This document shows positions 39,562 to 58,850 of a stretch of DNA of 58,850 nucleotides, piece after piece (the first letter of the stretch is position 1; each line of letters starts with the position of its first letter). This DNA comes from Anaerolineaceae bacterium (GTDB lineage: Bacteria > Chloroflexota > Anaerolineae > JAAYZQ01): NCBI GenBank assembly GCA_012514775.1, contig JAAYZQ010000288.1, positions 1-58,850 of the forward strand. The letters are read 5' to 3'. A program made the translations under genes and the position numbers. The notes beneath the pieces are model-generated. The model was given only the letters and a program-made list of their open reading frames with translations. It did not search any database and was not told the origin of the DNA.

Positions 39562-39924
39562 TCAGGCCGCCAGGGCCACCTCGTGGTGGTTCGTCTGCAG
39601 CTCGATGAGATTGGCCAGGTCCCTGGCCGACGGGGCCAGGTGGTGCTCGCCCGATACGACGATGACCCGGCTGGTGTCGACGTCCAGGCAGAGGAGGGGT
39701 ATGTCCGGCCGGTCGCGTAGGAAGGGGACGACAAACTGGATTCTCGAGTCCATGGAATCAAAGATAATGAGGTCAGGTCCCAGCACTTTCAGCTTTTCGA
39801 CTACGTCGTTCACGGAGGAATGGATTCGCACCAGTCCCAGATCGCGTCTGCCTTGCAGGCTGGCTTCGATGGAGTCAATAAACAGTGAATCGCCAAATAG
39901 GACCACGACCCTCGATTTCTTCAC
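39562..39924 (-). CDS. Atypical receiver-like protein A (paralog of 53126-53590)
   Basis: A 120-residue protein with alternating strand/helix pattern of a response-regulator receiver. It keeps an Asp (D56) in PDLIIFD at the phospho-acceptor position, but the N-terminal acidic pair is replaced by LFGDSLFIDSIEA and the conserved Thr/Ser-Lys end by VSGEHHLAPSA. The same blocks occur in the protein at 53126-53590, so these are paralogs of a family I cannot name. GTG start at 39924; the open frame extends upstream to 40155, but that part has no receiver-like sequence. It lies downstream of the ECF/DUF5667 pair. Confidence 0.75.
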   Translation of the reverse strand: MKKSRVVVLFGDSLFIDSIEASLQGRRDLGLVRIHSSVNDVVEKLKVLGPDLIIFDSMDSRIQFVVPFLRDRPDIPLLCLDVDTSRVIVVSGEHHLAPSARDLANLIELQTNHHEVALAA

Positions 39925-40162
39925 CTCATACCCCCATCTTTCGGTGCGCGCCGCGGGCCGTCTCGTCGCGACGGGCGCAGGACTTTGGAAGTGCCTGGCT
40001 CCCTGCTGGCACCCGTCGCTGGCCTTCCCCCGGACATCGGTGCCCTTCACGAGAGGGTCGGTGTCAACCAGCCACTGCGTACTGCCGAGAGCCAGGCAAT
40101 TGGTTTGCCTGGCGGTGCGGCCCATCCGGATGCGCCGCACCGCCGATGGTCTCATTGCTCTG

Positions 40163-41242
40163 TTACGGCTTGCCCTTGCCTCCGCTGCCGGATTGAGAGT
40201 CCCCCGGGTCTTTATTGCCGGGTCCGGCGCTGTTCTTCCCCCCGTCTTCCGAGGGGCCCGGGCCGGGCTGTTCTTCAGAGGGGCCCTGTCCGCTCGTCTC
40301 GTCCGGGGCCTCTGGCCCCGGTCCCGGACCCGCGCTCACGGGCGCGTCGCTGCCGGTGGGCGTTTCCTCGGGCTTGGGGCCTGGTCCGGCCGGCGTGTCG
40401 CCTTTGGGCTTGGAGCCCTCACTCCCCTGGGGCCCGAGACCTGGCTGATCGGCCGGGTTTGGCATGTCTGCGGGATCCTTGGGCACGCCGAATCGACCAC
40501 GATACTGCTCACCCTGCGCTTCTCCCCTTCCTGCTTGCAGCTCTTGCCGCAACTGCTCGGTCTCGCGGGCCAGTTCGCGCAGCGGTTCTCTCTCGGTGTC
40601 GGTTTCTGACAGCCCCGCCATGGCCTGTACGACGCGCCGGTGCCAGTTCTCGATCCTGGCCTCGTGCTGTTGCATAACCTGGAGTGGCGCCTGCACTTCT
40701 TCGCCCACCGTTTCCAGGGCCATGCCGACGTGCTTCTGCAGCATCTGGTTGGTCGGCTGATCGATACCCTGGCCGGTTTCCATGGTCACGGCGACCTCGT
40801 TCAGCCGCTCCTCAACGGCGTCGAGGGCCAGGTCCATCCGGGCCTCTGGATCGTTGGTCCACTTCATACGCTGTTCGGTGACAAGCAGCTTGAGGCCGTA
40901 GAGAGGGTCTCCCGGCAGACTGCTGGCCATGGCCTGCCCCGCGCCAAAGAGCAGGCCCACGACCAGGACAGCAATGGTGACGCTGGCGATCATCCTGGCG
41001 GGGCCGGCCAAAGGCCAGAAGTATCCCCGGCGGCTAGTCTTGCGGTCCCTCAGTGCCGCGGCCTGGCCCAAAAAGCGCTGGCGACCGGGCGCCAGGTTGT
41101 GGGGCGCCGGGGGAGGCGGTTCTGCCAGTGCGGACAATCGCTGCGCAGTTTGGATCAGAGGATTGAGCGGGCCCTCGACCGTTTCTCCCCGGGCTGCTCG
41201 TTCCAGGGCCTGCTCTAACTGGTTGGCTCGCTTGCTGCTCAT
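40163..41242 (-). CDS. DUF5667-domain membrane protein, candidate anti-sigma partner
   Basis: A 359-residue protein. The cytoplasmic N-terminus of about 75 residues (MSSKRANQLEQALERAARGE start) leads to one transmembrane helix near 82-105, then the DUF5667 helical domain (SLPGDPLYGLKLLVTEQRMK, MDLALDAVEERLNEV). From about residue 240 it is a Pro/Gly/Glu/Ser-rich tail, presumably a flexible outer segment. Genes of this type follow ECF sigma factors, which suggests a membrane-bound regulator of sigma activity, but that role is inference. ATG at 41242 with AGAGGAGAAC; it lies inside the 3' end of the sigma gene frame. Confidence 0.8.
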   Translation of the reverse strand: MSSKRANQLEQALERAARGETVEGPLNPLIQTAQRLSALAEPPPPAPHNLAPGRQRFLGQAAALRDRKTSRRGYFWPLAGPARMIASVTIAVLVVGLLFGAGQAMASSLPGDPLYGLKLLVTEQRMKWTNDPEARMDLALDAVEERLNEVAVTMETGQGIDQPTNQMLQKHVGMALETVGEEVQAPLQVMQQHEARIENWHRRVVQAMAGLSETDTEREPLRELARETEQLRQELQAGRGEAQGEQYRGRFGVPKDPADMPNPADQPGLGPQGSEGSKPKGDTPAGPGPKPEETPTGSDAPVSAGPGPGPEAPDETSGQGPSEEQPGPGPSEDGGKNSAGPGNKDPGDSQSGSGGKGKP

Positions 41243-41786
41243 GTCTGTTCTCCTCTCGCTCCAGTAGCTTCTGGAGGCGCTCGATGGCACGGAACTGGAG
41301 GAGCTTGATGGCGCCCTTGCTCTTGCCGAGCAGCCGGCCAATCTCTTCCAGCTTTAACCCCTGGCCAAAGCGGAGCAGGATAACCTGCTGCTGGCCCGGC
41401 GTGAGCTGGCTGATGGCCTGCCGGAGCTGCTCCCCGAGGTGGCAGCGTTCCAACCGATTCAGAGATGACTCGGCATTCGCGACGATCTCTTCGTCCAGGG
41501 GCAGCTCGGTCTTTTTTGCCCGCTCCCGAAAGTGGTCCATGGCCAGGTTGTGCGCCACGCGGTAGAGCCAACCTTGAAGTTGTTCTCTCGGCGCACGCGC
41601 CGTGTCGAGCGACTCCAGGAACTTGACAAAGACCTCGCTCGTCAAGTCCTCGGCCAGTTGCACATCTCCCAGGTAGCGGTACAGATAGGCATAGATCGTA
41701 GCTGCATGCCGATCATAGATCTCGGCCAGTGCCCGGGCATCGTTTTGGCGCGCCTGCTGGAGCACGGTTCGATCGCTTGCTGCCAA
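41034..41786 (-). CDS. ECF-type RNA polymerase sigma factor
   Basis: Region 2 (RHAATIYAYLYRYLGDVQLA, EDLTSEVFVKFLESL) and region 4 (LTPGQQQVILLRFGQGLKLE, EIGRLLGKSKGAIKLLQFRA) are clear. The sigma fold ends near residue 183, but no stop occurs until residue 250, so the last 209 bases overlap the DUF5667 gene in another frame and encode a Pro/Gly/Arg-rich tail. TTG start at 41786 behind GAGAGGAG. An ECF-type promoter just upstream suggests autoregulation. It follows the 33-heme cytochrome gene by 80 bases. Confidence 0.9.
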   Translation of the reverse strand: MAASDRTVLQQARQNDARALAEIYDRHAATIYAYLYRYLGDVQLAEDLTSEVFVKFLESLDTARAPREQLQGWLYRVAHNLAMDHFRERAKKTELPLDEEIVANAESSLNRLERCHLGEQLRQAISQLTPGQQQVILLRFGQGLKLEEIGRLLGKSKGAIKLLQFRAIERLQKLLEREENRHEQQASQPVRAGPGTSSPGRNGRGPAQSSDPNCAAIVRTGRTASPGAPQPGARSPALFGPGRGTEGPQD

Positions 41787-41806
41787 AAGTTGCTCCTCTC
41801 ACTCAA

Positions 41807-41833
41807 TAGACGCCCGGGCTGGCAAAAGGTTAC
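41807..41833 (-). promoter_or_regulatory. ECF-type promoter of the sigma/DUF5667 pair
   Basis: On the minus strand GTAACC (41833-41828) and CGTCTA (41812-41807) are 15 bases apart. AACC...CGTC is the usual signature of promoters read by ECF sigma factors (spacing normally 16-17), so the sigma factor probably drives its own gene. Confidence 0.6.
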
Positions 41834-41866
41834 GGGTTTCTCCACATTTGACACATTTTTCCCCAC

Positions 41867-44647
41867 TCATGGCCGCGGGGGATTCGGTACCTGGTACTCG
41901 GGCGGCGGCGTCTGCGGGATGAATGGGTTGACCGCGGCATCGCCATTGCGGGATCCAGAGTACTCCCGGAATGGCACTCGCTCCGGCTCGATCTCGCCCG
42001 TGCCCGGGCTCAGCTCCGACCCAGGCGTTTCGACGAGCCACGTGTCGGTGGTGTGACACTTGGAGCACTGGCCCCGGGAATGGCCCGAGGGCCGGTCCGC
42101 CGAATGGCAGGCCACGCAGTTGGTATAGCCCGAGTGGTTAAAGGTGGCGTCTTCCCAGGAACCCGTCCCGTGGCAGTCAGAGCAGGAGCCGGGCCAGTGG
42201 CCGTCGGGGGCCGGGTGGCACGACGTGCAGTTGGAGAGGCCGTCGTGGGAAAACTCGTAATCAGGCCACGAAGTTGTGTTGTGACACAGCGAGCACTGAT
42301 CGTCATAGTGTTTGTCCGGAGCCGGGTGGCACGAGGCGCAGTCGCTGTCCGCCGGGTGGGGAACCTCGACGTTGCTCCAGTCGCAGGTGCAGTGACAATC
42401 AGAGCATTGGCCCGGCCAGTGACCTACCGGTGCGACGTGGCAGGAGATGCAGTCCACGAGGCCGGTGTGCGACACATCCAGCTGATGCCAGTCGGTTGTA
42501 TCGTGGCAGTCGAGGCAGGGCCCGGCATAGTGACCAGGAGGCGCCGCGTGGCACACAGTGCAGTCCAGGAGACCGTTGTGCACGGCGCTGGTGGTGCCCC
42601 AATCGGTGGTGTTGTGGCAGTCGGTGCAGGCATTGTTGTAGTGTCCGGCCGGCGCCTGGTGGCAGTCGACACAACTTGTGAGCCCACTGTGATTGATGTT
42701 GACCTGCTGCCAATCGCTCGTGTTGTGGCAGTTCTGGCAGCCGCCCGGGTAGTGCCCCGAGGGAGCCGGGTGGCAAGTGCTACAGGGGCTACCCCCGTCG
42801 TGATACAGATTGCCCGAGGTCCAGTCGTCTGAGCTGTGGCAGTTGGAGCACTGACGACCATAATGACCGGCAGGCGCGTCGCGGCGGTGGCAGTCGACAC
42901 AGTCCCTGAAGCCGCTATGGTTGAACCACGCCTGTGTCCAGTCCACGGTATTGTGGCAGTTGGAGCACTGGCCCCGGTAATGGTCGGCCTTGCTGTGACA
43001 CGACTGGCAGTCGGGCATGTCGGCGTGGTCGGGGGTTGCGCCTACCCAGTCAACGGTGTTGTGACACAGCGAGCACTGCCCGATGTAGTGCTCCAGAGGC
43101 CGGTCCTTGAGGTGGCAACTGGCACAGTCGGGAAGCCGGCTGTGATTGACGCTCACGTTTTGCCAGCCCTCTGTATTGTGGCAGAGGGTGCAATCGTAGT
43201 CATAGTGGTCAGCCTCGGCCGCATGGCATTCCACGCAGTTCCCGGCGGCGTGATCAAAGGTCATGTCCTGCCAGTCGGCGGTCGCGTGGCAGTCGGCGCA
43301 GCCGCTGTCAGGGTGATCGGCAGGCAGCTCGCTGCCTCCGTGGCAGGATGCGCAGTCATCCAGGCCGGTGTGGTCAAAGGCCACTCGCTGCCAGTCGTCG
43401 GTGCCGACGTGGCAGTTGCTGCACGTCTCGGGTCCCTGTTGCAGAAAGAGCGGGCGCGGCACCTCGCGGGCCAGGGCGGAAGGCATCCAGGCCGCGTACC
43501 ACACGTAGCTGTCCGGCCGCCAATAGTGGTCGGCCGGCACCTCGAGCTGGTGACAAACAACGCAATCGCTCCCATCAGCGTGATCGTACTCCACCGGTTC
43601 CCAGCTCCCCGTGGTGTGGCAGCCGGCGCAGTCGCCCACGTAGTGCCCATCCAGGTCGCTCCTGGCCTGATGGCATGCCTGGCAGTCCTCGTAGCCGTTG
43701 TGGTCGAAGGAGGTCACCCGCCAGTCGGTGGTGCTGGTGTGGCACGCGATGCAGCGATCGGGCTGTCCAGGGCCGGCGGCAAAGGGCGGCGAGACGATCT
43801 CGAAGGGCTGGCCAACGAGGGAGTAGGTGCTCCTGGGGCGGGCATAGTGGTCGGCCGGACGCTCGTCCAGGTGGCACGACTCGCACTCGACAACGCCGGC
43901 GTGGTCGAACTGCCGGGGATCCCAGCCGTCGGCAGAGTGACAGTCGTCGCAGGCGCCGCCAAAGTGCGCGGCATAGATCGTGCTGTCCGGCGCCGTATGG
44001 CAGCCCTCGCAGTCGCGCGCCGTGTCCACGTACTTGCCGTCCCCGTGGCACGCTTCGCACTCCACTTCCTGGTGGCCGGCCAGGAGAGGATAGGAATCGT
44101 GCTGAACGTCGGACCCGAGGAACGGGATCGGCTCGGCCTTGAGGAGCGAGTTGCCGGGTGGTGCGGGGACGGTGGCCTGCTGTACGGCGGGGGTCTGCTG
44201 CAGGGCGAGGACCGTGGCCGTAAGGCTCACGAGCACGGGCTCTTCCTGCATGGTCGCTTCGACGCCCGTCAACACGACCTCGGCCTGGGCCAGGATCGCC
44301 TTGAACCTGCCGAACAGGGCCTCTTGCCTGGCTTCTGGCGCGGCCTCCACGCGGCGCTGCGCCTGCTCCACTGCGGCCTGCAGTGCCACGCCTGCGGCGC
44401 GCAGGTGGTCCGGCTCCTCGGCACGGGCCAGGTCCGCGAGCCGGCGCTCGGCCAGGTCCATGGCCACCTCGGCGCGGCGCGCGTCGCCCGAGCTGAGCTG
44501 AAGGCGCCACTGCTCGGCCCTGTGCTGTACGGGGTAGAATGGCCCGCCCTGATGCAGAGGATACAGCTCGGAGAGCACGATGAGGGCAAAGAGGACCATC
44601 GTTGCCAGCACGTTCAGGGCCCCAAAGGCAATCAGGAGTTTTTTCAT
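41867..44647 (-). CDS. Giant membrane-anchored multiheme cytochrome c, 33 CxxCH motifs
   Basis: A 926-residue protein. One N-terminal helix (about 5-26) probably anchors it in the membrane. Residues 28-125 are helical and resemble DUF5667 (FYPVQHRAEQWRLQLSS, VAMDLAERRLADLARAE). From residue 197 to about 870 there are 33 CxxCH heme sites. The C-terminal half is a tandem of modules of 37 residues with the pattern CxxCH-NTxDW-(x6)-HxG-(x3)-CxxCH-xAPxGHY, so each pair of hemes comes with two extra His that can act as distal ligands. A Pro-rich tail of about 55 residues ends the protein. It is the last cytochrome in the cyt b-Rieske cluster and is best read as a long electron wire reaching from the membrane outwards. 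Coupled to the preceding gene by ATGA. Confidence 0.93.
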   Translation of the reverse strand: MKKLLIAFGALNVLATMVLFALIVLSELYPLHQGGPFYPVQHRAEQWRLQLSSGDARRAEVAMDLAERRLADLARAEEPDHLRAAGVALQAAVEQAQRRVEAAPEARQEALFGRFKAILAQAEVVLTGVEATMQEEPVLVSLTATVLALQQTPAVQQATVPAPPGNSLLKAEPIPFLGSDVQHDSYPLLAGHQEVECEACHGDGKYVDTARDCEGCHTAPDSTIYAAHFGGACDDCHSADGWDPRQFDHAGVVECESCHLDERPADHYARPRSTYSLVGQPFEIVSPPFAAGPGQPDRCIACHTSTTDWRVTSFDHNGYEDCQACHQARSDLDGHYVGDCAGCHTTGSWEPVEYDHADGSDCVVCHQLEVPADHYWRPDSYVWYAAWMPSALAREVPRPLFLQQGPETCSNCHVGTDDWQRVAFDHTGLDDCASCHGGSELPADHPDSGCADCHATADWQDMTFDHAAGNCVECHAAEADHYDYDCTLCHNTEGWQNVSVNHSRLPDCASCHLKDRPLEHYIGQCSLCHNTVDWVGATPDHADMPDCQSCHSKADHYRGQCSNCHNTVDWTQAWFNHSGFRDCVDCHRRDAPAGHYGRQCSNCHSSDDWTSGNLYHDGGSPCSTCHPAPSGHYPGGCQNCHNTSDWQQVNINHSGLTSCVDCHQAPAGHYNNACTDCHNTTDWGTTSAVHNGLLDCTVCHAAPPGHYAGPCLDCHDTTDWHQLDVSHTGLVDCISCHVAPVGHWPGQCSDCHCTCDWSNVEVPHPADSDCASCHPAPDKHYDDQCSLCHNTTSWPDYEFSHDGLSNCTSCHPAPDGHWPGSCSDCHGTGSWEDATFNHSGYTNCVACHSADRPSGHSRGQCSKCHTTDTWLVETPGSELSPGTGEIEPERVPFREYSGSRNGDAAVNPFIPQTPPPEYQVPNPPRP

Positions 44648-45702
44648 AGCCTCACCTCCAATGGCGAGCATCCAGCAGTACCATCCTGCTGTGTCGGATC
44701 AGCGGACAGATGCCGCGGGGTCGGGCCTGGTGTTCCACACGAGTGACAGAAGAGGGCGCCTGCTCGCAGGGCGGTCCCACATCTGGAACAAACCAGGACG
44801 CTGCTCCGTCCGTGTGCCGGCGAGGATCGAGGCGCTCGCCAGGCTGCGTAGGCGACGCCCAGTACAAGGAGCGCCAGGCCCGCACCGGCCAACAGGCCCA
44901 ACAGCGAGCCGGATTGGGGTTGGCGGGTTGTTGCGGCCGGAGCCGCCATGGCCGGCATTGTCGGTGCCTGGGCATCCTCCAGGGCCATCACTCCCTGCCA
45001 GGAGAGCGAGGGATCCGGGTCGGCCTTGGTGTAGCGCACGGTGACGGTCACGTCCTCGCCGGCCGCCACCCGCCCAACCTGGATCTGGTGGTAGGTCAGC
45101 CCCAGGGAGCTGTCCACACGATTGGTCGCCGGGTGCGGCTCCACCTGGAAGCTGGTGGCCCGGGCGGGCTCCTGCACTTCCAGAAGCAAGTCGTCGATAG
45201 GGTAGAGACTGCTCAGAGTGTATGTGAACTCTTTGTCGGCGCCTGCCGCCAGCGGATCGTAGTAGTACTCGTAGAAAAAGTGGGCGTTGGTCAGGGTATA
45301 GGTGACTGCCTGCCAACGGGGATCGGCCCCGTCAGGCAGCGCCTCGTACTCCTGGGTCAAGGTGCCCCCGTCCATGCTCATGACGGCCATCTGGTTGATG
45401 CTCGCCTCTCGTGGCAGGCGAAAAGTGACCTTTGCCGGAAGGGCGTCAGACTCGGCAAGCCTTCCCTGGACGACGACCAGAACGCGAGGATTGTCGAATT
45501 CAGGCATCACCTGGACGCGCAGGATCTGGATGTGAAGGTCAGTCTGGGCGGACAGAGACCGCGCCACCCCTCCGGTTCCCGGTTCCCGGGCAAAGGCCAG
45601 CGGCCCAGGGGCCAGGAGCGCCAGGCAGACGATGATTCCGAGGCAGGCAAGGGCCCGGCCTCGCCTGACGGTCCCGCTTGCCGAAAGGCTCTCAGTCCTC
45701 AT
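44644..45702 (-). CDS. Membrane protein with extracytoplasmic beta domain and cytoplasmic zinc ribbon
   Basis: A 352-residue protein I do not recognise as a named family. It has a signal peptide (about 1-37), a beta-rich extracytoplasmic domain of about 220 residues, one transmembrane helix near 263-285, and a C-terminal zinc ribbon CSRCG...CHSCG on the inner side. It lies between the 12-heme and 33-heme cytochrome genes, overlapping the first by 11 bases and the second by 4, so it is almost certainly part of the electron-transfer system, perhaps in assembly or sensing. The ATG at 45702 follows GGGAGAGCC. Confidence 0.75.
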   Translation of the reverse strand: MRTESLSASGTVRRGRALACLGIIVCLALLAPGPLAFAREPGTGGVARSLSAQTDLHIQILRVQVMPEFDNPRVLVVVQGRLAESDALPAKVTFRLPREASINQMAVMSMDGGTLTQEYEALPDGADPRWQAVTYTLTNAHFFYEYYYDPLAAGADKEFTYTLSSLYPIDDLLLEVQEPARATSFQVEPHPATNRVDSSLGLTYHQIQVGRVAAGEDVTVTVRYTKADPDPSLSWQGVMALEDAQAPTMPAMAAPAATTRQPQSGSLLGLLAGAGLALLVLGVAYAAWRAPRSSPAHGRSSVLVCSRCGTALRAGALFCHSCGTPGPTPRHLSADPTQQDGTAGCSPLEVRL

Positions 45703-46792
45703 CACCGGCTCTCCCTTCCCAGGCCTGGGGCTCCTGCTCCACCGGCCCCGGGACAGCCTTGCGGGCAATCTCGCCTGCCTCGCCCGACTGGCCGGTGGGA
45801 TGGCACAGGGCGCAGCCTTCGATCTCTTCTTCGGCGATGCCCTCTTCCAGGTGCAGCCGGCGCATCTCGGCCGGCTCGTGGTCGTGGCAGCCGTAGCAAC
45901 TGACGGCAGTGTAGGTCTCCACGTGGCAGGTGCGGCATTCAAGGCGCTCCTCGCTGCCGTGGTCCAGATAAAACAGGTGCTGCCGCAGCTCGGCCGGTGC
46001 CCAGGCCATCGTGCCGTGGCAGCGAGCGCAGTCCAGGCCAAAGGCCCCGGCGTGCACCTCCGGCTCCCGATGGCAGTTGGCACAGGTGCGCGGCACCGGG
46101 GCAAAGGTCTGGTCCACGTGGCATCCCTCACACTCCAGGCTTTCATGGCCTCCGTCGATCACAAAGACCTGGGCGTGGTCCAGTCCGATCATGCGGTCGC
46201 GGCCATCGTGGCAGCCCAGGCAGTTGCCGCCGAAGCGATCTGCGTGCTCGCCCATGTAGTGGGGGTCCTGGCCGTCGTGACAGGTGGTACAGTCCACCGA
46301 CTCGGGCGCAAAGGTCCCCTCCGAGTGGCACCGCTCGCATGTGAGGTTCGTGCCGTCATAGTCGAGTTGGTGCCGGGCCAGGCTAAAGCCCGTGAGGCGC
46401 TCGTGGTTGATGTTCACAAAGGGGACGGCGCTGATTACCGCCTCGCGCCCCTGGTGCTCAATGTGACACGACTGGCACTTGTCGGTGCCGGGCAAGAGGC
46501 CGTGCAACCCGCTGGCCTCCGCCCTCTGCCTGGCAATGTCCTGGTGGCACTCCTGGCAGCGATTGGCCGAAAGACAGCGGACCGGGGCGTGGCAGTGCTT
46601 GCAGTCTCTTTCGAATTCTGCGTGAGACTCGTAGCCGTTCAACACCACCCCCGACTGGGCGCTCGACAGAGGGCCGGGATCGTAGTTCTTTTTGAAACCG
46701 TAAGCGCCGCCACCGGTGCCCAGCATGACCACCAGGAGCACCAGGTTGCGGCTTTTGGCGGAGCGGAGGATTTTGATCAGGTCGAGTTTCAT
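45692..46792 (-). CDS. Multiheme cytochrome c, 12 CxxCH motifs
   Basis: A 366-residue cytochrome with an N-terminal membrane anchor or signal (about 17-32) and 12 CxxCH sites from residue 64 on. The C-terminal five-heme block (CANCH, CARCH, CRTCH, CYGCH, CALCH) with FGLDCARCH and VSCYGCHDHEPAEM is closely similar to that of the six-heme protein encoded just upstream, so part of the two genes shares ancestry. It may take electrons from the six-heme protein and hand them to the 33-heme wire. Confidence 0.93.
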   Translation of the reverse strand: MKLDLIKILRSAKSRNLVLLVVMLGTGGGAYGFKKNYDPGPLSSAQSGVVLNGYESHAEFERDCKHCHAPVRCLSANRCQECHQDIARQRAEASGLHGLLPGTDKCQSCHIEHQGREAVISAVPFVNINHERLTGFSLARHQLDYDGTNLTCERCHSEGTFAPESVDCTTCHDGQDPHYMGEHADRFGGNCLGCHDGRDRMIGLDHAQVFVIDGGHESLECEGCHVDQTFAPVPRTCANCHREPEVHAGAFGLDCARCHGTMAWAPAELRQHLFYLDHGSEERLECRTCHVETYTAVSCYGCHDHEPAEMRRLHLEEGIAEEEIEGCALCHPTGQSGEAGEIARKAVPGPVEQEPQAWEGRAGDED

Positions 46793-46827
46793 CGTGTTCG
46801 CACTCCTGCTCAGGACGCCTGCGAGGT

Positions 46828-47790
46828 CTATTTGCCCCGCACTCTCGCATCTGGGTCGTTATCAGTCCCGTCGCTTTCCTGTTCTCCAGGATAGTCCGGG
46901 CCGGTCGGGGCTTCGAGGGACGGGATCTCGTCGCCCAGGATCTGGTCGGCCGGCTGCCAGTTGGCGTCGGCGCCACCCTGGCCCGAGAGGCCATAGCCCA
47001 GGGCTGCCGCTTCGCCTTCCAGGCCGGTGGGGTGGCAGGTGGCACAGGGCTCCAGCTCTTCGATGCCCTCCGCCAGGTGGACGGCCTGCATGTCGTCCGG
47101 GACGTGGTCGTGGCAGCCGTAGCAGGTGTTGGTCGCATAGCTCTCGACGTGGCACGTCTGGCACGACACCTTGCCCTCGTCGCCGTGGTCGAGGAAGAAG
47201 GTATGGCGGGTGAGCAGGGCCGGTTTCCACGCCTGGAGCGTGTGGCAGCGAGAGCAGTTGAGGCCAAAGCGCTCGGCGTGCACGTCGGGCTCTTCGTGGC
47301 AGGCGCGACATTCGTGGGGGTCTTCGCCGGTGCCTTCCATTGTGGCCAGCTCCTCGTCGGGCGACCTGATCTCCGGCGGCTCGACCCCCCGGTTCGCTGC
47401 CAAATCATCCACTCGCTCCCAGTCGCCGTTCATGATCAGCGTGATGAGGCTCTCCACCTGGTAGTGGTTGAGGCTGCCGCCCTCGTCCACGTGCCAGGCC
47501 GACATCACCGTGCCGTGGGGCGAGTGGGCCACGATGTCGTACAGGGCGCTGCGGCTCGCCCGCCCCTCGCCGAGCTGGTTGAGAGACGGCATGGAGCCGA
47601 TTCCCTCGCCGCCATGACCGTGACACGCGGCACAGTTGTCGAGGTACATGGCGGCGCCATCGGCGGTAAAGCGCGCCTGCAACTGGCCCTGGGCGGCAGC
47701 CATGCGCTGCGGCTCCAGCAGGGCATAGACGGGCAAGGCTATTACAAGGACCAACAATGCAACCAGACTGACGGTGTAATACCTGTTCAT
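46828..47790 (-). CDS. Six-heme cytochrome c: class I domain plus five-heme module
   Basis: A 320-residue membrane-anchored cytochrome. After an N-terminal helix (about 6-25) comes a class I cytochrome c domain with DNCAACHGHGGEG at 51-63 and a probable axial Met at position 96 (GTVMSAW). From residue 161 five more CxxCH sites (CRACH, CSRCH, CQTCH, CYGCH, CATCH) form a module shared with the 12-heme protein. Located directly after the Rieske gene, it takes the place that cytochrome c1 or f has in other bc complexes and so is the likely electron acceptor from the Rieske centre. Confidence 0.92.
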   Translation of the reverse strand: MNRYYTVSLVALLVLVIALPVYALLEPQRMAAAQGQLQARFTADGAAMYLDNCAACHGHGGEGIGSMPSLNQLGEGRASRSALYDIVAHSPHGTVMSAWHVDEGGSLNHYQVESLITLIMNGDWERVDDLAANRGVEPPEIRSPDEELATMEGTGEDPHECRACHEEPDVHAERFGLNCSRCHTLQAWKPALLTRHTFFLDHGDEGKVSCQTCHVESYATNTCYGCHDHVPDDMQAVHLAEGIEELEPCATCHPTGLEGEAAALGYGLSGQGGADANWQPADQILGDEIPSLEAPTGPDYPGEQESDGTDNDPDARVRGK

Positions 47791-47814
47791 CGATCGGCCT
47801 TTCCAGTCTTGGCC

Positions 47815-48363
47815 CTAAAAGGACGCCTGGGCAAAAGGCTCAGCCGGGCAGTAGGCCAGTTGAGCCTGCTCGAAGGTCTTGCGCTGCTGCACCTGGGAAG
47901 TGTTCACGCGAACCAGGTTGTTCTCGAAGTGGACGGGAAAGGTGTCCAGGGGGCGAGGAACCGGTGGGCCCTCAAAGTTGCCATAGAAGTCAAAGCTGGC
48001 GGCGTGGCAGGGGCACACGAATTCGTTCTCCGCCGGAACCCAGTTCACCGTGCAGCCCAGGTGCGTGCAGCGGTTATAGACGGCCAGGAACCCGCCGTCG
48101 GGGGCGCGGATGAGAAAAAAGCGCTCATGCTCGAACTCGGTCACCGAGCCTGGCTGAAAGTCGTCGATGGCGCCGGCCGTGACCAGGCCGCCGTACTCAC
48201 CCTCCAGGCTGCGGGCGCGCAAGAAGACAAAACCCACCCCGCCGGCCTCCACGAGCGCCAACGCGCCCAGGGCGCCGACGCCGAGGCGCAGAAACCCACG
48301 TCGAGACAGCCGGCCCGGCGCTTGAGCCTGGTTCTGGGGATCAGTGTTGCATGCTGAGCTCAT
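47815..48363 (-). CDS. Rieske [2Fe-2S] protein of a cytochrome bc-type complex
   Basis: A 182-residue Rieske protein. The twin-arginine-type N-terminus LSRRGFLRLG precedes a transmembrane helix (about 25-48), as expected for folded export and anchoring. The cluster boxes are CTHLGCTVNW and CPCHAASFDFYG, with both Cys and both His present. ATG at 48363 behind GGAGGAATC, 17 bases after the cytochrome b gene. It moves electrons from quinol to the c-type hemes. Confidence 0.95.
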   Translation of the reverse strand: MSSACNTDPQNQAQAPGRLSRRGFLRLGVGALGALALVEAGGVGFVFLRARSLEGEYGGLVTAGAIDDFQPGSVTEFEHERFFLIRAPDGGFLAVYNRCTHLGCTVNWVPAENEFVCPCHAASFDFYGNFEGPPVPRPLDTFPVHFENNLVRVNTSQVQQRKTFEQAQLAYCPAEPFAQASF

Positions 48364-48380
48364 GATTCCTCCTGCAAAGC

Positions 48381-49727
48381 TTAGAAGGGCAGCGCCAGGG
48401 CCATGTTGGCACCCCGGAAAAAGACGCCCACGATGGTCAGAACGACCAGGGCGACGACGACAAAGGCAAACAGCCCCACCAGGGCCTCGCCATGCCGCGC
48501 CCGGAACAGGAGCCGGCCCAGGCCATAGACCGCGGCCAGGCCGGCCACGGTGGCCAGGAACGGCACCAGCCCGGTGGAGACGAGGAGGGGGGCCGTGGGC
48601 AGCCAGGCCGTCAGATCCAGCCAGAACTCGTCGACGATGACGAGGACAGGCACCAGGTCGAGGGCCAGGACCGCTCCCAGGATGGCTGCCCGCCGGCCCC
48701 GGGGCGAGCGGAAATAGAGCCCGATGTCGCCGGCTTGCCGGTCGGCAAAGGGCAGCAGCGCGGCCCCGGCCACGACGACGAACACCAGGGCGATAGCTGC
48801 CAGGGGATGCATGTGTAGCAGGATCTCTTGCAGCCCGGCAAAGTACCAGGCGGCCTTGGCCGGGTTGGGCGGATGGGCGGGATTGGCAATGTCGCCGAGG
48901 GGCGCCGGCAGCAGCATGGCCCACAGGACGACGACGGCGAGCAGGATCGTCGCGGCCGCAGTCTCGCGCTGCACCAGGTGCGGGATGGTCGACACGGGCC
49001 GTTCGGTGGATGCGTTTTCCGCGACCGGCCGCGAGATGCCGCCGTCCTTGCGCACCCGCCAGAAGTGATAGCCCATCGCGGCCGCGGCCAGGGCCGGCAG
49101 AACGGCCACGTGGAGGGCGTAAAAGTTGCTGAGGGCGCCCTGGCCCACGTCTGGCCCGGCCAGGACCAGGCGGCTGAGGGATTCGCCTACCAGGGGAACG
49201 TAGGCGATGAGGCTGGTGGAGACGGTGACCGCCCAGTAGGCGAGCTGATCCCAGGGCAGCAGGTAGCCGGTAAAGTTAAAGACCAGTACCAACACCAGGA
49301 GCAGCGTGCCCACCAGCCAGTTGAGGGCCCGGCCGGCCTTGAAGCCGCCGGTCAAGAAGACGCGGATGAGGTGCAAGAAGACCGTGACGACCAGCAGGTT
49401 GGCGGACCAGTGGTGGATGCCGCGGACCAGGGAGCCAAAGGCCACCTGGGCCTCCAGCATCTGGATGCTGCTGTAGGCCCGGTCGATGGTGGGCTCGTAG
49501 CGGAACATGAGCAGGATGCCCGAGAGGCCCAGGCAGAGGGCCAGCACCGCCGACAAGCCGCCCAGGCCCCAGGTGTAGCCCAGGCTCAGGGCCCCGGCAG
49601 GCACCCGCGGCGGGTGCAGGTGCAGGATCAGGCTGTTGGCCGTGGCTCCGACGCGGCTGCGGCCGCCCCTCCGGGGGCGGCGCGCCCGTCCTTGCCCTTC
49701 TTCCCACGTCTTGGCTGTGACTTCCAT
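48381..49727 (-). CDS. Cytochrome b of a bc-type quinol oxidase complex (full-length)
   Basis: A 448-residue membrane protein combining the N-terminal cytochrome b part and the subunit IV-like part. Heme ligands are in IHHWSANLLVVTVFLHLIRV and FYALHVAVLPALAAAAMGYH. The segment where bc1 proteins have the quinol-site PEWY reads NPAKAAWYFAGLQEILL, so the Glu is missing, as in some Gram-positive-type complexes. The N-terminal 30 residues are basic and cytoplasmic. Starts the b-Rieske-cytochrome gene run. Confidence 0.93.
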   Translation of the reverse strand: MEVTAKTWEEGQGRARRPRRGGRSRVGATANSLILHLHPPRVPAGALSLGYTWGLGGLSAVLALCLGLSGILLMFRYEPTIDRAYSSIQMLEAQVAFGSLVRGIHHWSANLLVVTVFLHLIRVFLTGGFKAGRALNWLVGTLLLVLVLVFNFTGYLLPWDQLAYWAVTVSTSLIAYVPLVGESLSRLVLAGPDVGQGALSNFYALHVAVLPALAAAAMGYHFWRVRKDGGISRPVAENASTERPVSTIPHLVQRETAAATILLAVVVLWAMLLPAPLGDIANPAHPPNPAKAAWYFAGLQEILLHMHPLAAIALVFVVVAGAALLPFADRQAGDIGLYFRSPRGRRAAILGAVLALDLVPVLVIVDEFWLDLTAWLPTAPLLVSTGLVPFLATVAGLAAVYGLGRLLFRARHGEALVGLFAFVVVALVVLTIVGVFFRGANMALALPF

Positions 49728-49749
49728 TGCAGTGCAGCGCTCCGATCCT

Positions 49750-49785
49750 GTGGGGTACGGCCAGCACGTCCTGGCCGTACCCCAC
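49750..49785 (-). terminator. Strong hairpin between the choice-of-anchor gene and cytochrome b
   Basis: A perfect 15-bp stem GTGGGGTACGGCCAG/CTGGCCGTACCCCAC with a 6-base loop in the 72-base gap. No U-run follows; it may partly terminate, process or stabilise mRNA and so set the ratio of surface protein to cytochromes. Confidence 0.5.
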
Positions 49786-49799
49786 GCTTGTGCCGCGCT

Positions 49800-52700
49800 C
49801 TAGTGCGCGATCAGCGGCAGGTAGATGTCGTGGAACTGCTCGGCGATCAGGATCCGGATCGTTTTGGGCTGCGACCAGTGGCCCTCGTTGTCCTGAACGG
49901 CAAAGCTAAAGTCGTGCAGGCCGGGGATGAGGCCCCTGGGCGGGAACTGCCAGATCCGCTCCTTGCACTCGTGGCCCTCGATGTCCGACCACCAGCGCAC
50001 GTTGTCGATGCCGCTGCCGGCCGGATCGTCCTCGTTGCCGATGCGGTCGAGGTCACGGCCGCCACCGACCAGGATGATGTCCGGGTCGTCGTAGGCGGCC
50101 TTCAAGGTGCTAACGTAAACGATGGTGGCTACGGGAAGGCGCTCCGTGGTGGCGGCGACGTCGTCCATCTCGTACATGAACCGGCGGTAGATGATGTCGC
50201 TGTCAAAGACCAGTTCGTGGCCATCGGGAAGGATCTCTTCTTGCCACTGGTTCCAAACGGCATACATGAAGGTGCCGCCGGGGTTGACCAACATGCCGGC
50301 CTCGCCCGAGAGGATCTCTGCCTTGTTCTCCGCCCACGGCCAGCGGTAGTCAAGGATCTCTCCTGTCTCCTCTTCGTACCAATCCGGATCCAGCTCCCAG
50401 ACGTCGCCGTAGACGGTTGCGCGGCTGTAGTAAAGGTTTAGCGGAACCGCCTCGCCCTCGGCAACGGTGGTGTTGTCGCCGGTTTCGTAGATCATGAAGA
50501 ACTTGCTGGGATCACGCACCAGATCATCGTCGTAGGGCAGGGTCTCTGATGGGGTGCCGATGTTGGCTTCCAGCCAGTCGGTGCGGATGGTGGGGTAGAG
50601 CTTCAGGCCGCCGGTGGGCGAGTAGCGCGGGTCGAGGATGGTGATCTTGTTGCCGATCAACTGTGAGACGTTGCGGCCCTGCTCAAACGCACCGGCGGCG
50701 TAGGTGAACTCGGTTCCCACGCACTCGTCTGCCGAGGTTTCGACACAGTAGTTCTCCGTCGCCGTCGTGCCTGCACCGCCCAGCGCCGCAGGGGTCGTAG
50801 TCCAGGTCAGGCCTCCGTCGAAGGAGCGGCGCACGTACAGGTTGTAGTGGTCGTTGCCGACGGTTTGGGCTTTCCAGTTGGGCGAAAACGCGTACATCAT
50901 CATCACATAGTCGCCGTCCAGGAAGCCGCGGTGGCCCTTGGCCAGATCGAAGGGGTTCTCCCAGCTCTGGTCGTCCAGGTCGTTGTCATCCTCGCAGCCG
51001 TCGATGGCGGCCGTGCCATCGCACTGGCGCCACTCGAGGACCTTGGGGAAGCCGCTGATTTCGTCCGGGATGCTGCCGTCGTCGGCCACGGGGAATGTGT
51101 CGGCGCAGGTGTCGTTGCCCGTCCCACCGCTGCACTCGACGATGGTGCTGCCCGAGATGTTGATGGCGGGCGACAGGCAGATGCCCTTCAGGTAATTGGG
51201 GTTGGAGCCGTCGGTGTAGGCCCACTCGGCACACTCCATGTTCTCGTAGGCGTAGGGATTGTCCACCGCCGCGTCAAAGTCGTCGGGGATGACCACGCGC
51301 CGCAAGAATATGTCGGCCGGGCCGCCCTGGTTGATGATGCCCTGCTTGTAGATCAGCATCGCCGACAGGCCGCTCTCGGAGTCCATCGCTGCCTGCACCG
51401 AGTTGGTGGTCAGCGCAAAGCGGCGGGCAATCTCGGTCAGATAGAATTCGCCGCCATTGAGCGGATCCGTCTGGACGGGAAAGAACTCGTACTCGTCGCA
51501 CACATAGTCCGCCCCGACCGTCCAGGGGCTGCAAGTGGCCGGTTGGTTGAGCATGCCACCCTGGTCGACGATGGGGGGGGTAAACATGTCAAAGGTGTAG
51601 TACCAGACGTCCTTGCCGATGTCGATGGGGTTCTCTGCCGGGTTGCCGTAGGGATCTATCAGTTGGTCGCCCAAGGCCTTGGTCTCCTCGGCCGCCATGA
51701 CCACCCAGGCGCTTCTCTCGACCACACCGTCCTCGTCTGCGTCCACTGCGCCCTCAGGGGTGTAGGGCTTGAGGTTGAGGCGCACGCGCGTGGAGGCCAC
51801 GCGGCCGTTCAACACCCGCCCATCTTCGGTCACACAGATGTCAAGCGTGGCGCCGCCTGGTGTCGTCCAGCTCATGGTCGAAGCGCAAAAGTCCGAGTCC
51901 AACGTGGGACTTTCCGGCAGTGCCAGCGGGTCGATTGCGTCGATGCTGTCAAAGTCGATGTAGCAATAGGGATCGCTGTTGATGGACTTGCACATGTTGT
52001 TGTCGGTCAAGCGGACGGGCATGGCCATGGGCACGTATGGCTTGGGTAGGGTGGCGTCTGCCAGGAGGCCGTAATCGGCCATGGTGACGGGGGTCCCCAC
52101 GGTGCCGTCTTGATCGAACACCAGGTCAAAGTCCGCGTAGCTGATATACGAGTACCAGATGTCTGTCTTGCCGTTGGCAATGGCGCCAGACCAGCCCTCT
52201 CCGGGGCCCAGGCCCTGGCCAGGGCGCAGTCCCTCCGGGTCTTCCTGCCACGTCAGGATGCAGCCGGCGCCCATGGCGCAGTCGACCGCCGGCAGGTTCG
52301 CGTCACGGCCGCCGGAGGTCAGCCGCTCGGGCTTGGTCCACATCACGTAGGTGGCCTCGGCCTCGGTCGTCGATGGATCATCGCCGGGCAGCAGCTTGCC
52401 GCGGGCCGTCCACACACAGGAGTAGGGGATCTCGCCGATCTCGGGAAAACCCTGCAACGTGTAATTCACCGAGCCCTGGGTGCCCTTCACGCCAAAGAGG
52501 TCGTAGAGATAGACGGCGTCCTTGCCATACGTGGCTTTGAGGTCGTCAAAGTAGTCGACGTCTTCGGTTGGGTCCAGCTTGTAAAGCGGGCTGCCGCCGT
52601 CGCAGTACTTGGACACCCAGGCGATAAAGATCTGGTCTCCCGCCACCTGGTGGACGACGTTGTGCACGTCACCCGGGTAAGCGTAGCCGTTTGCCAGGAA

Positions 52701-53129
52701 GAAGGATGACAGGTCGGCCGAGCGAGACAGGTTGGTGGTCCTCCAGCTCGTCCCGTCGTCCAGGGAGACTCCGACGTAGGCATCGAAATGCCCAAAGCTC
52801 ATCCCGCCCCGGATCGCCTCGGAGATGGCGACGTCGCCGCCAGTGTCGTCGATGTAGACCGACACCAAAGGCTTGGCGTAGTAGCGGTCCTCATAAAGGG
52901 GGGTAGTATCCTCAGAATCGGCGAGCGGGGGATAAATCACCGGCCCGACCAGGCCGGTCGAAGCCTGGGCCGGCACGTAGAAATCCATCATATAGATGGC
53001 GGCTTTTTCCGTCTCGGCGTCGGGCGTCTTGGAGATGTTGCGGCGAAAGAGCGCGCCGTCTTCGGCATAGGCCAGGTTTGACGCCAGCATGACGACAATC
53101 AAGGCGAATAGCAGGATCTTGGTCTTCAT
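49800..53129 (-). CDS. Large secreted 'choice-of-anchor O'-like protein
   Basis: An 1109-residue exported protein with signal peptide (about 1-22). The body has repeated sialidase/BNR-like segments (VGVSLDDGTSWRTTNLSRSA; YVRRSFDGGLTWTTTPAALG) and resembles proteins annotated as choice-of-anchor O, which I recall occurring next to multiheme cytochromes. About a dozen Cys residues could form disulfides; no CxxCH is present. The C-terminus ends in FHDIYLPLIAH, a [YW]LPLI tail also seen in the FG-GAP protein at 57623. It precedes cytochrome b in the same direction and its ATG overlaps the upstream receiver-like gene (ATGA), so it probably belongs to the electron-transfer system at the cell surface. 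Confidence 0.75.
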   Translation of the reverse strand: MKTKILLFALIVVMLASNLAYAEDGALFRRNISKTPDAETEKAAIYMMDFYVPAQASTGLVGPVIYPPLADSEDTTPLYEDRYYAKPLVSVYIDDTGGDVAISEAIRGGMSFGHFDAYVGVSLDDGTSWRTTNLSRSADLSSFFLANGYAYPGDVHNVVHQVAGDQIFIAWVSKYCDGGSPLYKLDPTEDVDYFDDLKATYGKDAVYLYDLFGVKGTQGSVNYTLQGFPEIGEIPYSCVWTARGKLLPGDDPSTTEAEATYVMWTKPERLTSGGRDANLPAVDCAMGAGCILTWQEDPEGLRPGQGLGPGEGWSGAIANGKTDIWYSYISYADFDLVFDQDGTVGTPVTMADYGLLADATLPKPYVPMAMPVRLTDNNMCKSINSDPYCYIDFDSIDAIDPLALPESPTLDSDFCASTMSWTTPGGATLDICVTEDGRVLNGRVASTRVRLNLKPYTPEGAVDADEDGVVERSAWVVMAAEETKALGDQLIDPYGNPAENPIDIGKDVWYYTFDMFTPPIVDQGGMLNQPATCSPWTVGADYVCDEYEFFPVQTDPLNGGEFYLTEIARRFALTTNSVQAAMDSESGLSAMLIYKQGIINQGGPADIFLRRVVIPDDFDAAVDNPYAYENMECAEWAYTDGSNPNYLKGICLSPAINISGSTIVECSGGTGNDTCADTFPVADDGSIPDEISGFPKVLEWRQCDGTAAIDGCEDDNDLDDQSWENPFDLAKGHRGFLDGDYVMMMYAFSPNWKAQTVGNDHYNLYVRRSFDGGLTWTTTPAALGGAGTTATENYCVETSADECVGTEFTYAAGAFEQGRNVSQLIGNKITILDPRYSPTGGLKLYPTIRTDWLEANIGTPSETLPYDDDLVRDPSKFFMIYETGDNTTVAEGEAVPLNLYYSRATVYGDVWELDPDWYEEETGEILDYRWPWAENKAEILSGEAGMLVNPGGTFMYAVWNQWQEEILPDGHELVFDSDIIYRRFMYEMDDVAATTERLPVATIVYVSTLKAAYDDPDIILVGGGRDLDRIGNEDDPAGSGIDNVRWWSDIEGHECKERIWQFPPRGLIPGLHDFSFAVQDNEGHWSQPKTIRILIAEQFHDIYLPLIAH

Positions 53130-53590
53130 CTCGTATTTCCCTCCTTTGGAACGAGGTCTGTCAGTTTTGCGTCCAAATCAGGTCCGTTGAGGTGCCATTC
53201 GCCCTGGTCGAACAGCAGGCTGGGGACCCCGCCCTTCGCGTGGCGGCGAATGATCTCGGTCAGGTCTTCTGCGGTGGGCGTGGAGTAGTGGTGGCCGCAG
53301 ACGACGATGGCCTCCTGGTGCTCCTGGTCCACACACAGAATAGAGACGCCCGGCTGTTCCCGGAGCAACGAAACAGCCAGGCGGCAGTTGTCGCCATTCA
53401 GATCCATGACGACGAGGTCGGGGCGCAACGACTTGAGGCGCTCAGGAGCATCGACTACGCTGCCGTAAATTCCGATCACCCCAATCTCGACGGTGCCGTG
53501 CAGGCAGGCCTCGACGGATTGAATAAAGAGTGCATCCCCAAAGAGGATGACGAGCTCTTGGTCTCTCGAGGAGTTGTCGGTTTGCTCCAC
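53126..53590 (-). CDS. Atypical receiver-like protein B (paralog of 39562-39924)
   Basis: A 154-residue protein with receiver-like pattern: VILFGDALFIQSVEACLHG, PDLVVMDLNGDN with a possible phospho-Asp (D63), ILCVD, and VVCGHHYSTPTAEDL where a receiver would have the conserved Lys. It aligns along its length with protein A, including an HH pair (H100-H101), and has about 35 extra C-terminal residues. GTG start at 53590 behind GGAGG; translationally coupled to the secreted protein gene downstream. Likely regulatory, but no output domain is seen. Confidence 0.75.
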   Translation of the reverse strand: MEQTDNSSRDQELVILFGDALFIQSVEACLHGTVEIGVIGIYGSVVDAPERLKSLRPDLVVMDLNGDNCRLAVSLLREQPGVSILCVDQEHQEAIVVCGHHYSTPTAEDLTEIIRRHAKGGVPSLLFDQGEWHLNGPDLDAKLTDLVPKEGNTR

Positions 53591-57622: not shown

Positions 57623-58850
57623 TCAGGGGATTGCCTCTCGCACGATCAACGGCAGCCAGATATGGCTGCGGGCTCGAGGTTCCAGGGGTCCATAATAGAC
57701 AAAGGCCCTGCCCACCGGGTCTTTCTCGAGCTTGTACTTGGGCGCGCCGATGGCGATCGCCAAGAATCCGGTGTTATCGGGCCTGCCCGCCGGGCCCACC
57801 GCAAACCCGTAGTAGGCTTCCGCCTTGTCTCCCGATTGGACCCATCCGGGTGTGTGTTGCAGGCCGGCGGGCGAGCCGAAATAGAGAAGAACAACGCCGT
57901 CCAGCCTTTGATCGTACGTCTCACGGTGCGCGCCAGCCAGAACGTCATCGTGGCCATCCCCGTCCAGATCACCGGCCGGCGCTAGGCTGGAGCCAAAGTG
58001 CGAGTGGGGCTCTCCTGCCGTGATGACGACGTCGGGGTGCTCTCCGGGACCGGTGTCCGAGCCATGGTAAACGTACAGCGCACCGAGGGTGACCCGTATT
58101 TGATCACCAGGGGCGCCGACGACGAGGTCATTGTAGCCATCGCCGTTAACGTCACTGGCCAGGGCCACCGCCGATCCAAACCAGGCGCCCTCCTGTTCGC
58201 CGTAGGCGGTCCAGGCGGGTGTGGCCGCCAGGCCCGAGGGCCCACCGAGGTAAAGAGCCGCAGTACCTGCGTCGGCTCCGTTGAAATCGTAGGTGGGCGC
58301 ACCGACGAGGAGGTCGGCATAGCCATCGCCGTTGACGTCGCCCCCGCCGGCCACGGCGCTGCCCAGGCCTGCGCCTGCTTGCCCCCCCGCCAGCAGGCGG
58401 TCAGGGGCAGCGGGCAAGCCCCCTTCGGAGCCGTAAAAGATCAGGACCCCCCCCTCCTTGTCCAGGGTGCCGGGGTACCAACGGGCACCGATGAGGAGGT
58501 CGTCGTAGCCATCGCCGTTTAGATCGCCACCTCCGGCGACGGTGTGGCCCAGGTTCGAGTCCCTGTAGGGGCTGATGAAGGACCAATCGGGTGTTGAAGA
58601 CAGCCCGTCCCTGGAGCCATAAAAGACCATGGCCGCCCCGGTCTTGGTGGTGCCATTGTTATACTCCGCAGCGCCGACCACCAGGTCGCCATAACCGTCG
58701 CCATTGAGGTCGCCCGCCGCTGCCACGGCCGCGCCAAAGCGAGAGCCCTGCTGCCCGCCGCCCAACCGCCAGGCCGGAGTGGTTGCCAGGCCTCCGGGGC
58801 CGCCGTAAAAGAGGCTTGCCACTCCTTCTCGGTAGACCAGGTCCTGGGCG
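57623..58850 (-). CDS. FG-GAP repeat secreted protein (partial, N-terminus missing)
   Basis: The frame is open to the right edge, so the start is off the window; about 408 codons are present. It consists of at least five FG-GAP (integrin-alpha-like) repeats of about 65 residues with calcium loops such as GDLNGDGYGDLVVGA, GDVNGDGYADLLVGAP and GDLDGDGHDDVLAGA. The C-terminus HIWLPLIVREAIP has the same [YW]LPLI element as the secreted protein at 49800. It ends 12 bases before the sensor kinase gene and may be part of the same transcript. Probably a cell-surface beta-propeller. Confidence 0.88.
   Translation of the reverse strand, partial: AQDLVYREGVASLFYGGPGGLATTPAWRLGGGQQGSRFGAAVAAAGDLNGDGYGDLVVGAAEYNNGTTKTGAAMVFYGSRDGLSSTPDWSFISPYRDSNLGHTVAGGGDLNGDGYDDLLIGARWYPGTLDKEGGVLIFYGSEGGLPAAPDRLLAGGQAGAGLGSAVAGGGDVNGDGYADLLVGAPTYDFNGADAGTAALYLGGPSGLAATPAWTAYGEQEGAWFGSAVALASDVNGDGYNDLVVGAPGDQIRVTLGALYVYHGSDTGPGEHPDVVITAGEPHSHFGSSLAPAGDLDGDGHDDVLAGAHRETYDQRLDGVVLLYFGSPAGLQHTPGWVQSGDKAEAYYGFAVGPAGRPDNTGFLAIAIGAPKYKLEKDPVGRAFVYYGPLEPRARSHIWLPLIVREAIP

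Follow-up and report, generated by a model that had tools for sequence, protein, structure and literature searches.

A cytochrome b–Rieske gene cluster with three multiheme cytochromes in an Anaerolineaceae bacterium, a candidate route from quinol to a long heme chain

Genes and proteins of the cluster

Positions 1 to 58,850 of contig JAAYZQ010000288.1 (assembly GCA_012514775.1; Anaerolineaceae bacterium, Chloroflexota), the whole stretch of DNA analysed here and referred to as the window, contain a cluster in which cytochrome b and a Rieske iron–sulfur protein are encoded together with three multiheme c-type cytochromes. The genes for cytochrome b, the Rieske protein, a 6-heme cytochrome, a 12-heme cytochrome, a zinc-ribbon membrane protein and a 33-heme cytochrome lie collinearly in that order on the minus strand (41867..49727), and the three cytochrome frames hold 6 + 12 + 33 = 51 CXXCH motifs. 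Elsewhere in the window, outside 41800-49800, a scan of all six frames turned up just two such motifs, at 34540 and 1091, so the clustering of the 51 is not a matter of chance. With translation starts placed at ATG 48363 for the Rieske protein and ATG 45702 for the zinc-ribbon protein, cytochrome b and Rieske are separated by 17 nucleotides (nt), Rieske and the 6-heme gene by 24 nt, and the 6-heme and 12-heme genes by 35 nt, which is the largest intergenic gap from cytochrome b through the 33-heme gene; the 12-heme and zinc-ribbon genes overlap by 11 nt and the zinc-ribbon and 33-heme genes by 4 nt. The initial annotation, made from the DNA letters, had read the same run of genes and the same number of hemes, and the motif counts, strand, spacing and Pfam matches (the last from 20 window proteins, a subset of the window's genes) all agree with it.

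Cytochrome b (48381..49727; 448 residues; Pfam Cytochrome_B, 1.4e-43) is composed of a b6-like part fused to a subunit-IV-like part and has eight hydrophobic segments. The candidate ligands of its b hemes, His105, His119, His206 and His221, are kept in all 82 cytochromes b that were aligned. Its nearest solved structures in the Protein Data Bank are cytochromes b6, and its top NCBIfam match is ExtP (NF040969; 272.1 bits, below the curated cut-off of 290), accompanied by an ExtQ match on residues 248-368. There is no cysteine for the b6f heme c_i/c_n: the stretch that we take to be equivalent to the location of the b6f Cys reads YTWGLGG, and no Cys occurs among its listed variants, in which two rows are partly or wholly gaps. 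The Rieske protein (47815..48363; PF00355, 1.7e-11) begins with SRRGFLRLG, resembling a twin-arginine translocation (Tat) signal, and has one transmembrane-like segment; its 2Fe–2S box, CTHLGC...CPCHAASF, conforms to the pattern CxHxxC...CxCH.

No protein of the cluster matched cytochrome f in Pfam or NCBIfam, and the 6-heme c subunit (46828..47790) stands in its place. This protein has an N-terminal transmembrane-like segment, a class I heme domain with the motif CAACH, and then a five-heme module, and it matches Cytochrome_CBB3 and, weakly, c7/c3 families in Pfam. The class I part is similar to actinobacterial QcrC and to CcoP, although the actinobacterial QcrC model NF050122 reaches just 38.5 bits over residues 8-76, short of its cut-off of 200. 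Met96 of this domain is present in 8 of 8 cases, and all 120 listed homologues of the 6-heme protein (261 were found) have exactly six CXXCH motifs. The 12-heme cytochrome (45692..46792), of c3/c7 type in Pfam, ends in a module in common with the 6-heme protein: over 109 residues its C-terminal end is 54% identical to the five-heme module, and the two are homologous. A 15-heme relative of the 12-heme cytochrome is encoded upstream of cytochrome b at two loci of a lineage with a triheme c subunit (L026:303-1535 and L027:7315-8547).

The 33-heme cytochrome (41867..44647, from an ATG at 44647 or alternatively 44671) is likewise of c3/c7 type in Pfam and comprises a transmembrane-like N-terminus, a helical DUF5667-like region (22.6 bits, under the Pfam cut-off of 27), diheme repeats and a proline-rich tail. 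In its second half the heme motifs are spaced mostly by 15 and 22 residues in alternation. Counted from a point 60 residues ahead of the first heme, the protein contains 34 histidines outside the motifs, enough candidate distal ligands that bis-His ligation of all 33 hemes is possible. Profile comparison identified the 16-heme HmcA (2e84/1h29) as the closest relative of known structure to the repeats, and there is a weak sequence match (E 4e-4) to 7lq5, presumably a cytochrome nanowire entry. HmcA of Desulfovibrio is the best solved sequence relative but has 16 hemes, and it belongs to a different membrane complex. AlphaFold2 gave a confident model just for the N-terminal helical region, approximately residues 5-158.

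No DNA tandem repeats were detected within the 33-heme gene at score 40, which indicates that the protein repeats did not arise as identical copies in the recent past. Of the 50 best homologues of the long cytochrome, 39 have odd heme counts (21, 23, 25, 27, 29, 31 or 33); counts of 22, 24 or 26 are found in eight and counts of 18, 36 or 52 in three. Even counts also occur at four of the ten loci described below (24 in L005; 22 in L009, L011 and L014). From these sequence counts the family seems to grow mainly by two-heme units, as a tendency and not a rule. A comparable account has been given of large cytochromes from Anaerolineales: their heme number is variable, and the authors suggest that motifs come and go in pairs or multiples (PMC7399161; papers are cited here and below from excerpts). 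At two loci a second long-cytochrome gene follows the first (L009:16514-18607 and L011:16388-18616, with 24 and 26 hemes), and at a third the second frame is short, with just four motifs (L014:16433-17041).

Conservation of the cluster and the cytochrome b clade

The same layout recurs elsewhere. Cytochrome b was used to scan contigs, and of the best 80 of 572 confirmed loci, seven have the arrangement of the window (L005, L008, L009, L010, L011, L014 and L015). A profile of the 6-heme protein searched against 396 genomes of the class to which L005 belongs gave a full-length match in four, which may be an undercount, with at most six candidates scored per genome; two of the four were already known, and the other two, G292 and G365, have the cluster as well (loci L113 and L114). 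Including the window, there are ten loci at which cytochrome b, Rieske, a 6-heme gene and a gene for 22-33 hemes lie on one strand. Seven of the ten have the 12-heme gene, which in L114 precedes cytochrome b.

The ten window-type sequences group together in a tree of 82 cytochromes b (support 97/89). Their group is nested in a larger one of 20 rows (100/100), in which the remaining ten rows carry the triheme label; the tree has a midpoint root only, L064 was left out as too short, and 11 of the 82 rows are without a c-subunit label. The triheme bc complexes of Chloroflexota (38 tree rows labelled A3, including L001-L004) share with the window cytochrome b, Rieske and a class I domain homologous to that of the 6-heme protein. 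They differ in having three hemes in the c subunit (two or three counted, some frames being cut), and the stretches examined show no gene with at least 16 hemes; the Rieske Ser discussed below is kept wherever the box is readable. Across all loci, a gene with at least 16 hemes is present at 10 of 10 window-type loci and at 0 of 73 others, many of these short contigs. The sequence downstream of cytochrome b extends at least 4.5 kb in 40 of the 73 and at least 3 kb in 54, so the absence of a long cytochrome carries little weight for the remainder, where contigs end early.

Three points of the initial annotation find support here. It had suggested conserved synteny as a check, and nine further Chloroflexota-type loci have the layout; it had placed the class I domain fused to a five-heme module where cytochrome c1/f would be, and related Chloroflexota loci encode a triheme c subunit at that place; and it had led the bc-type complex to a very long heme wire, with which the distribution of genes for at least 16 hemes agrees.

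Most Rieske proteins of the window-type loci differ from the others at one position of the cluster-binding box. The residue equated with the potential-raising Ser of the bovine protein is Ala in 7 of 10 window-type boxes, whereas all 65 other readable boxes have Ser and none has Ala (Fisher test, p 6e-8, a descriptive value that ignores kinship); L029, L062 and L063 have no readable box and were left out. Read by hand, the cytochrome b tree places the Ala sequences on three branches or more. All 75 boxes have Phe at the Tyr position. In the yeast Rieske protein, the potential drops by 130 mV when the Ser is lost and by 65 mV when the Tyr is lost (PMC12954380).

Other arrangements were seen in the course of these searches. 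At 23 loci, mostly of Bacteroidota, Ignavibacteriota, Chlorobiota and Desulfobacterota type, cytochrome b and Rieske are followed by a protein with 7 or 8 CXXCH motifs, mostly of about 770 residues; L037, L044, L047 and L049 are among the non-Chloroflexota loci with such a protein after Rieske and cytochrome b. Relatives of the 12-heme and long cytochromes also occur in separate clusters (L116:7000-11379, L117:5397-10158 and L118:1219-3339), those of L116 and L117 adjoining a pyridine-nucleotide oxidoreductase (Pyr_redox_2), and no cytochrome b match was found in the L116-L118 stretches. A plasmid origin was considered and set aside, a plasmid collection having given no match to the 6-heme protein.

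The zinc-ribbon protein and the flanking genes

The one cluster gene lacking a heme motif encodes the zinc-ribbon membrane protein (44644..45702; PF13240, Zn_Ribbon_1). An N-terminal hydrophobic segment is followed by a beta-sandwich ectodomain, one transmembrane-like segment and the zinc ribbon. AlphaFold2 modelled the protein with a mean predicted local distance difference test score of 81 and a confident ectodomain, for which Foldseek returned a putative protease, ribophorin I and beta domains of M1-aminopeptidase as the best, albeit weak, matches (template-modelling score at most 0.38 among the 50 matches listed); we ascribe no redox role to it. The protein database holds 48 homologues, four of which (P0038-P0041) add a class I cytochrome c domain. 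A search at E 1e-4 did not find the gene in the seven loci from the contig scan, nor in L113 or L114; as homologues exist elsewhere, it belongs to a subset.

Upstream of cytochrome b by 72 nt lies a gene for a choice-of-anchor O protein of 1109 residues (49800..53129, minus strand; NF040591, 696.4 bits, cut-off 125) with a transmembrane-like segment at residues 1-24. It adds to the cluster as previously delimited and is linked in relatives too: the other nine loci have the gene or a fragment of it upstream of cytochrome b, either directly or with one or two genes between. The pieces in L008 (124.7 bits) and L114 (81.3 bits), both under the cut-off, are truncated where the contig or stretch ends, and L015 has a weak piece of 103 residues. 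A gene for a short receiver-like protein (rr; 53126..53590, minus strand; no Pfam match at 0.01) overlaps the start of the choice-of-anchor O gene by 4 nt, and L113 has a homologue on the upstream side. A second, related small protein of this receiver-like kind, again unmatched in Pfam, is encoded on the other side of the cluster at 39562-40155; it and rr (53126-53590) align with 86 bits. A promoter and terminator scan placed a minus-strand promoter-like site at 54026-53998, upstream of rr, among four such sites in total against 1.9 expected. A gene for a GAF histidine kinase is also found upstream of the cluster, and an FG-GAP repeat protein (57623..58849, minus strand; PF01839, 4.1e-42) is encoded at the window's edge. 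An FG-GAP homologue adjoins the cluster in 8 of 9 relatives, the gene in L005 scoring 262.6 bits against that of the window. Choice-of-anchor O and FG-GAP genes are linked to such complexes in relatives as well.

On the other side, 80 nt downstream of the 33-heme gene, lies a gene for an extracytoplasmic function (ECF) sigma factor (41034..41786, minus strand; TIGR02937, Sigma70_r2), a possible regulator of the cluster. The neighbouring DUF5667 membrane protein (40163..41341, minus strand; PF18915, 4.7e-8; transmembrane-like residues 110-142) may be anti-sigma-like, as judged by position only. It has weak similarity to the 33-heme protein (BLASTP E 0.002), and a DUF5667 match begins the long cytochrome in 8 of 9 genomes, in five of them above the Pfam cut-off. 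These matches prompted the idea that the 33-heme protein and the DUF5667 gene are connected in signalling, which was rejected because the domain occurs elsewhere in the same genomes too.

A candidate route from quinol to a long cytochrome

We lean, with some reserve, towards the reading that the cluster encodes a Rieske/cytochrome b quinol oxidiser in which the triheme c subunit has been replaced by a six-heme adapter, coupled to a long membrane-anchored cytochrome, with an acceptor that is most likely extracellular. Menaquinol, the putative donor, would be oxidised at the quinol-oxidation site (Qo) of cytochrome b, with one electron passing to the Rieske cluster and from there to the 6-heme protein at its class I heme, while the two b hemes, as the low-potential branch, would sustain a Q cycle. 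If the proteins assemble and their hemes come into contact, electrons would leave the class I heme for the five-heme module and move outward, by way of the 12-heme protein where there is one, to the 33-heme protein, which may deliver them to an acceptor beyond the membrane such as a mineral, humic matter or a partner cell. Heme stacking in OmcS amounts to about 0.8 nm per heme. A 33-heme wire with hemes stacked as in known wires would measure some 25 nm, which would be enough to span a monoderm wall.

Other bacteria are already known to combine Rieske and cytochrome b with multiheme cytochromes. In Geobacter, extKLMNOPQS (GSU2937-2930) encodes the Rieske protein ExtO, the cytochrome b ExtP, ExtQ, and cytochromes with 12, 10, 5 and 4 hemes (PMC2825233, PMC5877670). 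This cluster resembles the window in encoding a Rieske protein and cytochrome b with several multiheme c cytochromes, and differs in its diderm host, its porin ExtI and rhodanese ExtH, and the splitting of cytochrome b into ExtP and ExtQ; models of the Ext cytochromes gave no match to the window's c cytochromes at 0.01, and Pfam found no porin among the 20 window proteins. The anammox complexes of Kuenenia similarly pair a b6-like cytochrome b with Rieske and have a multiheme c in place of cytochrome f; their own features are hexa- and octaheme c subunits, NAD(P) oxidoreductase subunits, a separate subunit IV and a high-potential Rieske, and the excerpts describe no long repeat cytochrome (PMC12954380). 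In Caldithrix, the Nap locus unites Rieske and cytochrome b with multihemes, and multihemes have been proposed by Dibrova and others as early partners of Rieske proteins (both in PMC5317091).

Within the Chloroflexota, large cytochromes of Anaerolineales, whose nearest relatives come from Japanese boreholes, have been suggested to serve extracellular transfer, no porin conduit having been found (PMC7399161). From their description, and not from sequence, they likely belong to the same family as the 22-33-heme proteins of the window type, although the excerpts mention no linked Rieske/cytochrome b complex or 6-heme subunit. The sediment Chloroflexi genome RBG-9, which we liken to the window by description alone, has two cytochrome b–Rieske complexes and a 24-heme cytochrome, with no gene linkage between them stated in the excerpts (PMC3971608). 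A literature search found no publication that ties a Rieske complex of Anaerolineae or Anaerolineales to multiheme cytochromes or extracellular electron transfer, and, in the excerpts that it covered, no earlier description of the six-heme adapter, of the joint gain of adapter and long cytochrome, or of the Rieske Ser change.

Several observations weigh against the proposed route. The monoderm envelope of the organism is assumed from its lineage and relatives. The transmembrane-like N-terminal segments of the 6-heme and 33-heme proteins would hold both at the membrane, no surface-binding domain was identified, and the AlphaFold2 model of the heme part of the 33-heme protein is unusable. A literal PEWY motif is absent from Qo of the window cytochrome b, which reads PNPAKAAWYF; relatives in which the pattern was found have KAAWY or KAPWY, or in two cases KAPWF or KAAWF, and variants of PEWY occur in other bc complexes. 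Three of the ten window-type Rieske boxes, those of L008, L015 and L113, retain Ser, and the Kustd1480 Rieske protein, which is without the Tyr, nevertheless has a potential of +335 mV (PMC12954380); for these two reasons the potential cannot be read from the sequence. The ext cluster of Geobacter has been tied to selenite and tellurite, and extHIJKL is reportedly dispensable for Fe(III) oxide (PMC5877670). Further points come from a survey of respiratory genes in the draft genomes of nine relatives, in which COX1 is present in seven, the cluster's own gene is the sole PF13631 cytochrome b in five, and a candidate for a second quinol-linked complex, described below, is doubtful in its naming. 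Lastly, L114 has a gene of the octaheme tetrathionate-reductase family (L114:955-2412; TIGR04315, 576.8 bits, cut-off 375) 3.6 kb beyond its 29-heme gene, on the same strand and with four same-strand frames between; an ArsR-looking small gene stands beside it. The initial annotation had presented a direct route from quinol to wire as a candidate for extracellular transfer. Synteny, the place of the c subunit and the association with long cytochromes speak for the route, but linkage alone does not prove mineral reduction, given the selenite and tellurite association of ext and the octaheme gene near the L114 cluster.

Those two observations lead to another explanation, which we regard as unlikely, namely that the complex is the same and the long cytochromes buffer electrons or distribute them to extracytoplasmic reductases or to dissolved oxyanions such as nitrite, tetrathionate, selenite or tellurite. 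The transmembrane-like anchors at the N-termini are consistent with such a role, as is the proposal that the Caldithrix Rieske/cytochrome b feeds NapM or eHao (PMC5317091). NrfA scores above its cut-off in five of the nine genomes, one of these hits being a fragment, and is missing at that level in the other four. No terminal-reductase name emerged from ten further flanking proteins scanned at six loci, the other flanks having been counted for CXXCH alone; the scanned proteins include a permease, a photolyase, a protease and, in L114, a pyridine-nucleotide oxidoreductase with Fer4_20. In addition, a carrier acting over a short range would hardly seem to need 22-33 hemes. No terminal enzyme among those tested turned up in every one of the nine genomes, which fits an external acceptor without showing it.

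The presence of COX1 raises the question of whether this is instead an ordinary aerobic complex III whose multihemes pass electrons to cytochrome c oxidase. The five genomes with no other PF13631 cytochrome b would be in keeping with that, but four of the five hold a further candidate quinol-linked complex that resembles alternative complex III (ACIII) by gene order. This set was read in G005 only, where L119 encodes in a row a 5-heme cytochrome, a molybdopterin protein, an iron–sulfur protein, an NrfD protein and a monoheme cytochrome, and a COX cluster lies elsewhere in the genome. The ACIII-like naming is not settled, because the molybdopterin subunit scores best with QrcB (243.7 bits), below the cut-off of 440. 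Moreover, the triheme relatives show no long cytochrome, and COX1 was not seen in the draft genomes G007 and G292; an ordinary aerobic complex III strikes us as very improbable. G365 apparently retains a triheme-type complex besides the one considered here.

The direction of electron flow may also be questioned. Multiheme chains are reversible in principle, and Ardenticatena, a member of the Chloroflexota in which extracellular transfer has been demonstrated, produces cathodic as well as anodic current (PMC5808234). Reverse use, with the wire taking electrons from Fe(II), a partner cell or a cathode and the complex reducing quinone, appears quite improbable to us, however, as a Rieske protein that has lost the Ser is expected to have a lower potential, on the evidence of the mutation effects cited above (PMC12954380), and this would be unfavourable for donors of the Fe(II) type.

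A more specific form of the outward route is possible but tentative, and we hold it with clear doubt. The cluster may represent a low-potential Q-cycle complex III hard-wired in one operon to a modular cable, a proton-translocating route by which monoderm Chloroflexota would pass electrons from menaquinol to solids or cells outside, with the Ser-to-Ala change as an adaptation to low-potential outside acceptors. The heme numbers of the cables include a series in two-heme steps (23, 25, 27, 29, 31 and 33), and the Ser-to-Ala change is seen here only in the clade with cables.

Outward electron flow in cells without an outer membrane, and the saving of energy at the quinol step, are poorly known. 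The ten loci provide, in a single clade, a natural range of cable lengths from 22 to 33 hemes and with it a comparative test bed for heme wires, and the Rieske substitutions yield a prediction open to direct measurement on a single small protein. If the proposed outward route is correct, the cluster would give Chloroflexota a bc-type entrance to an extracellular route, and one that conserves energy.

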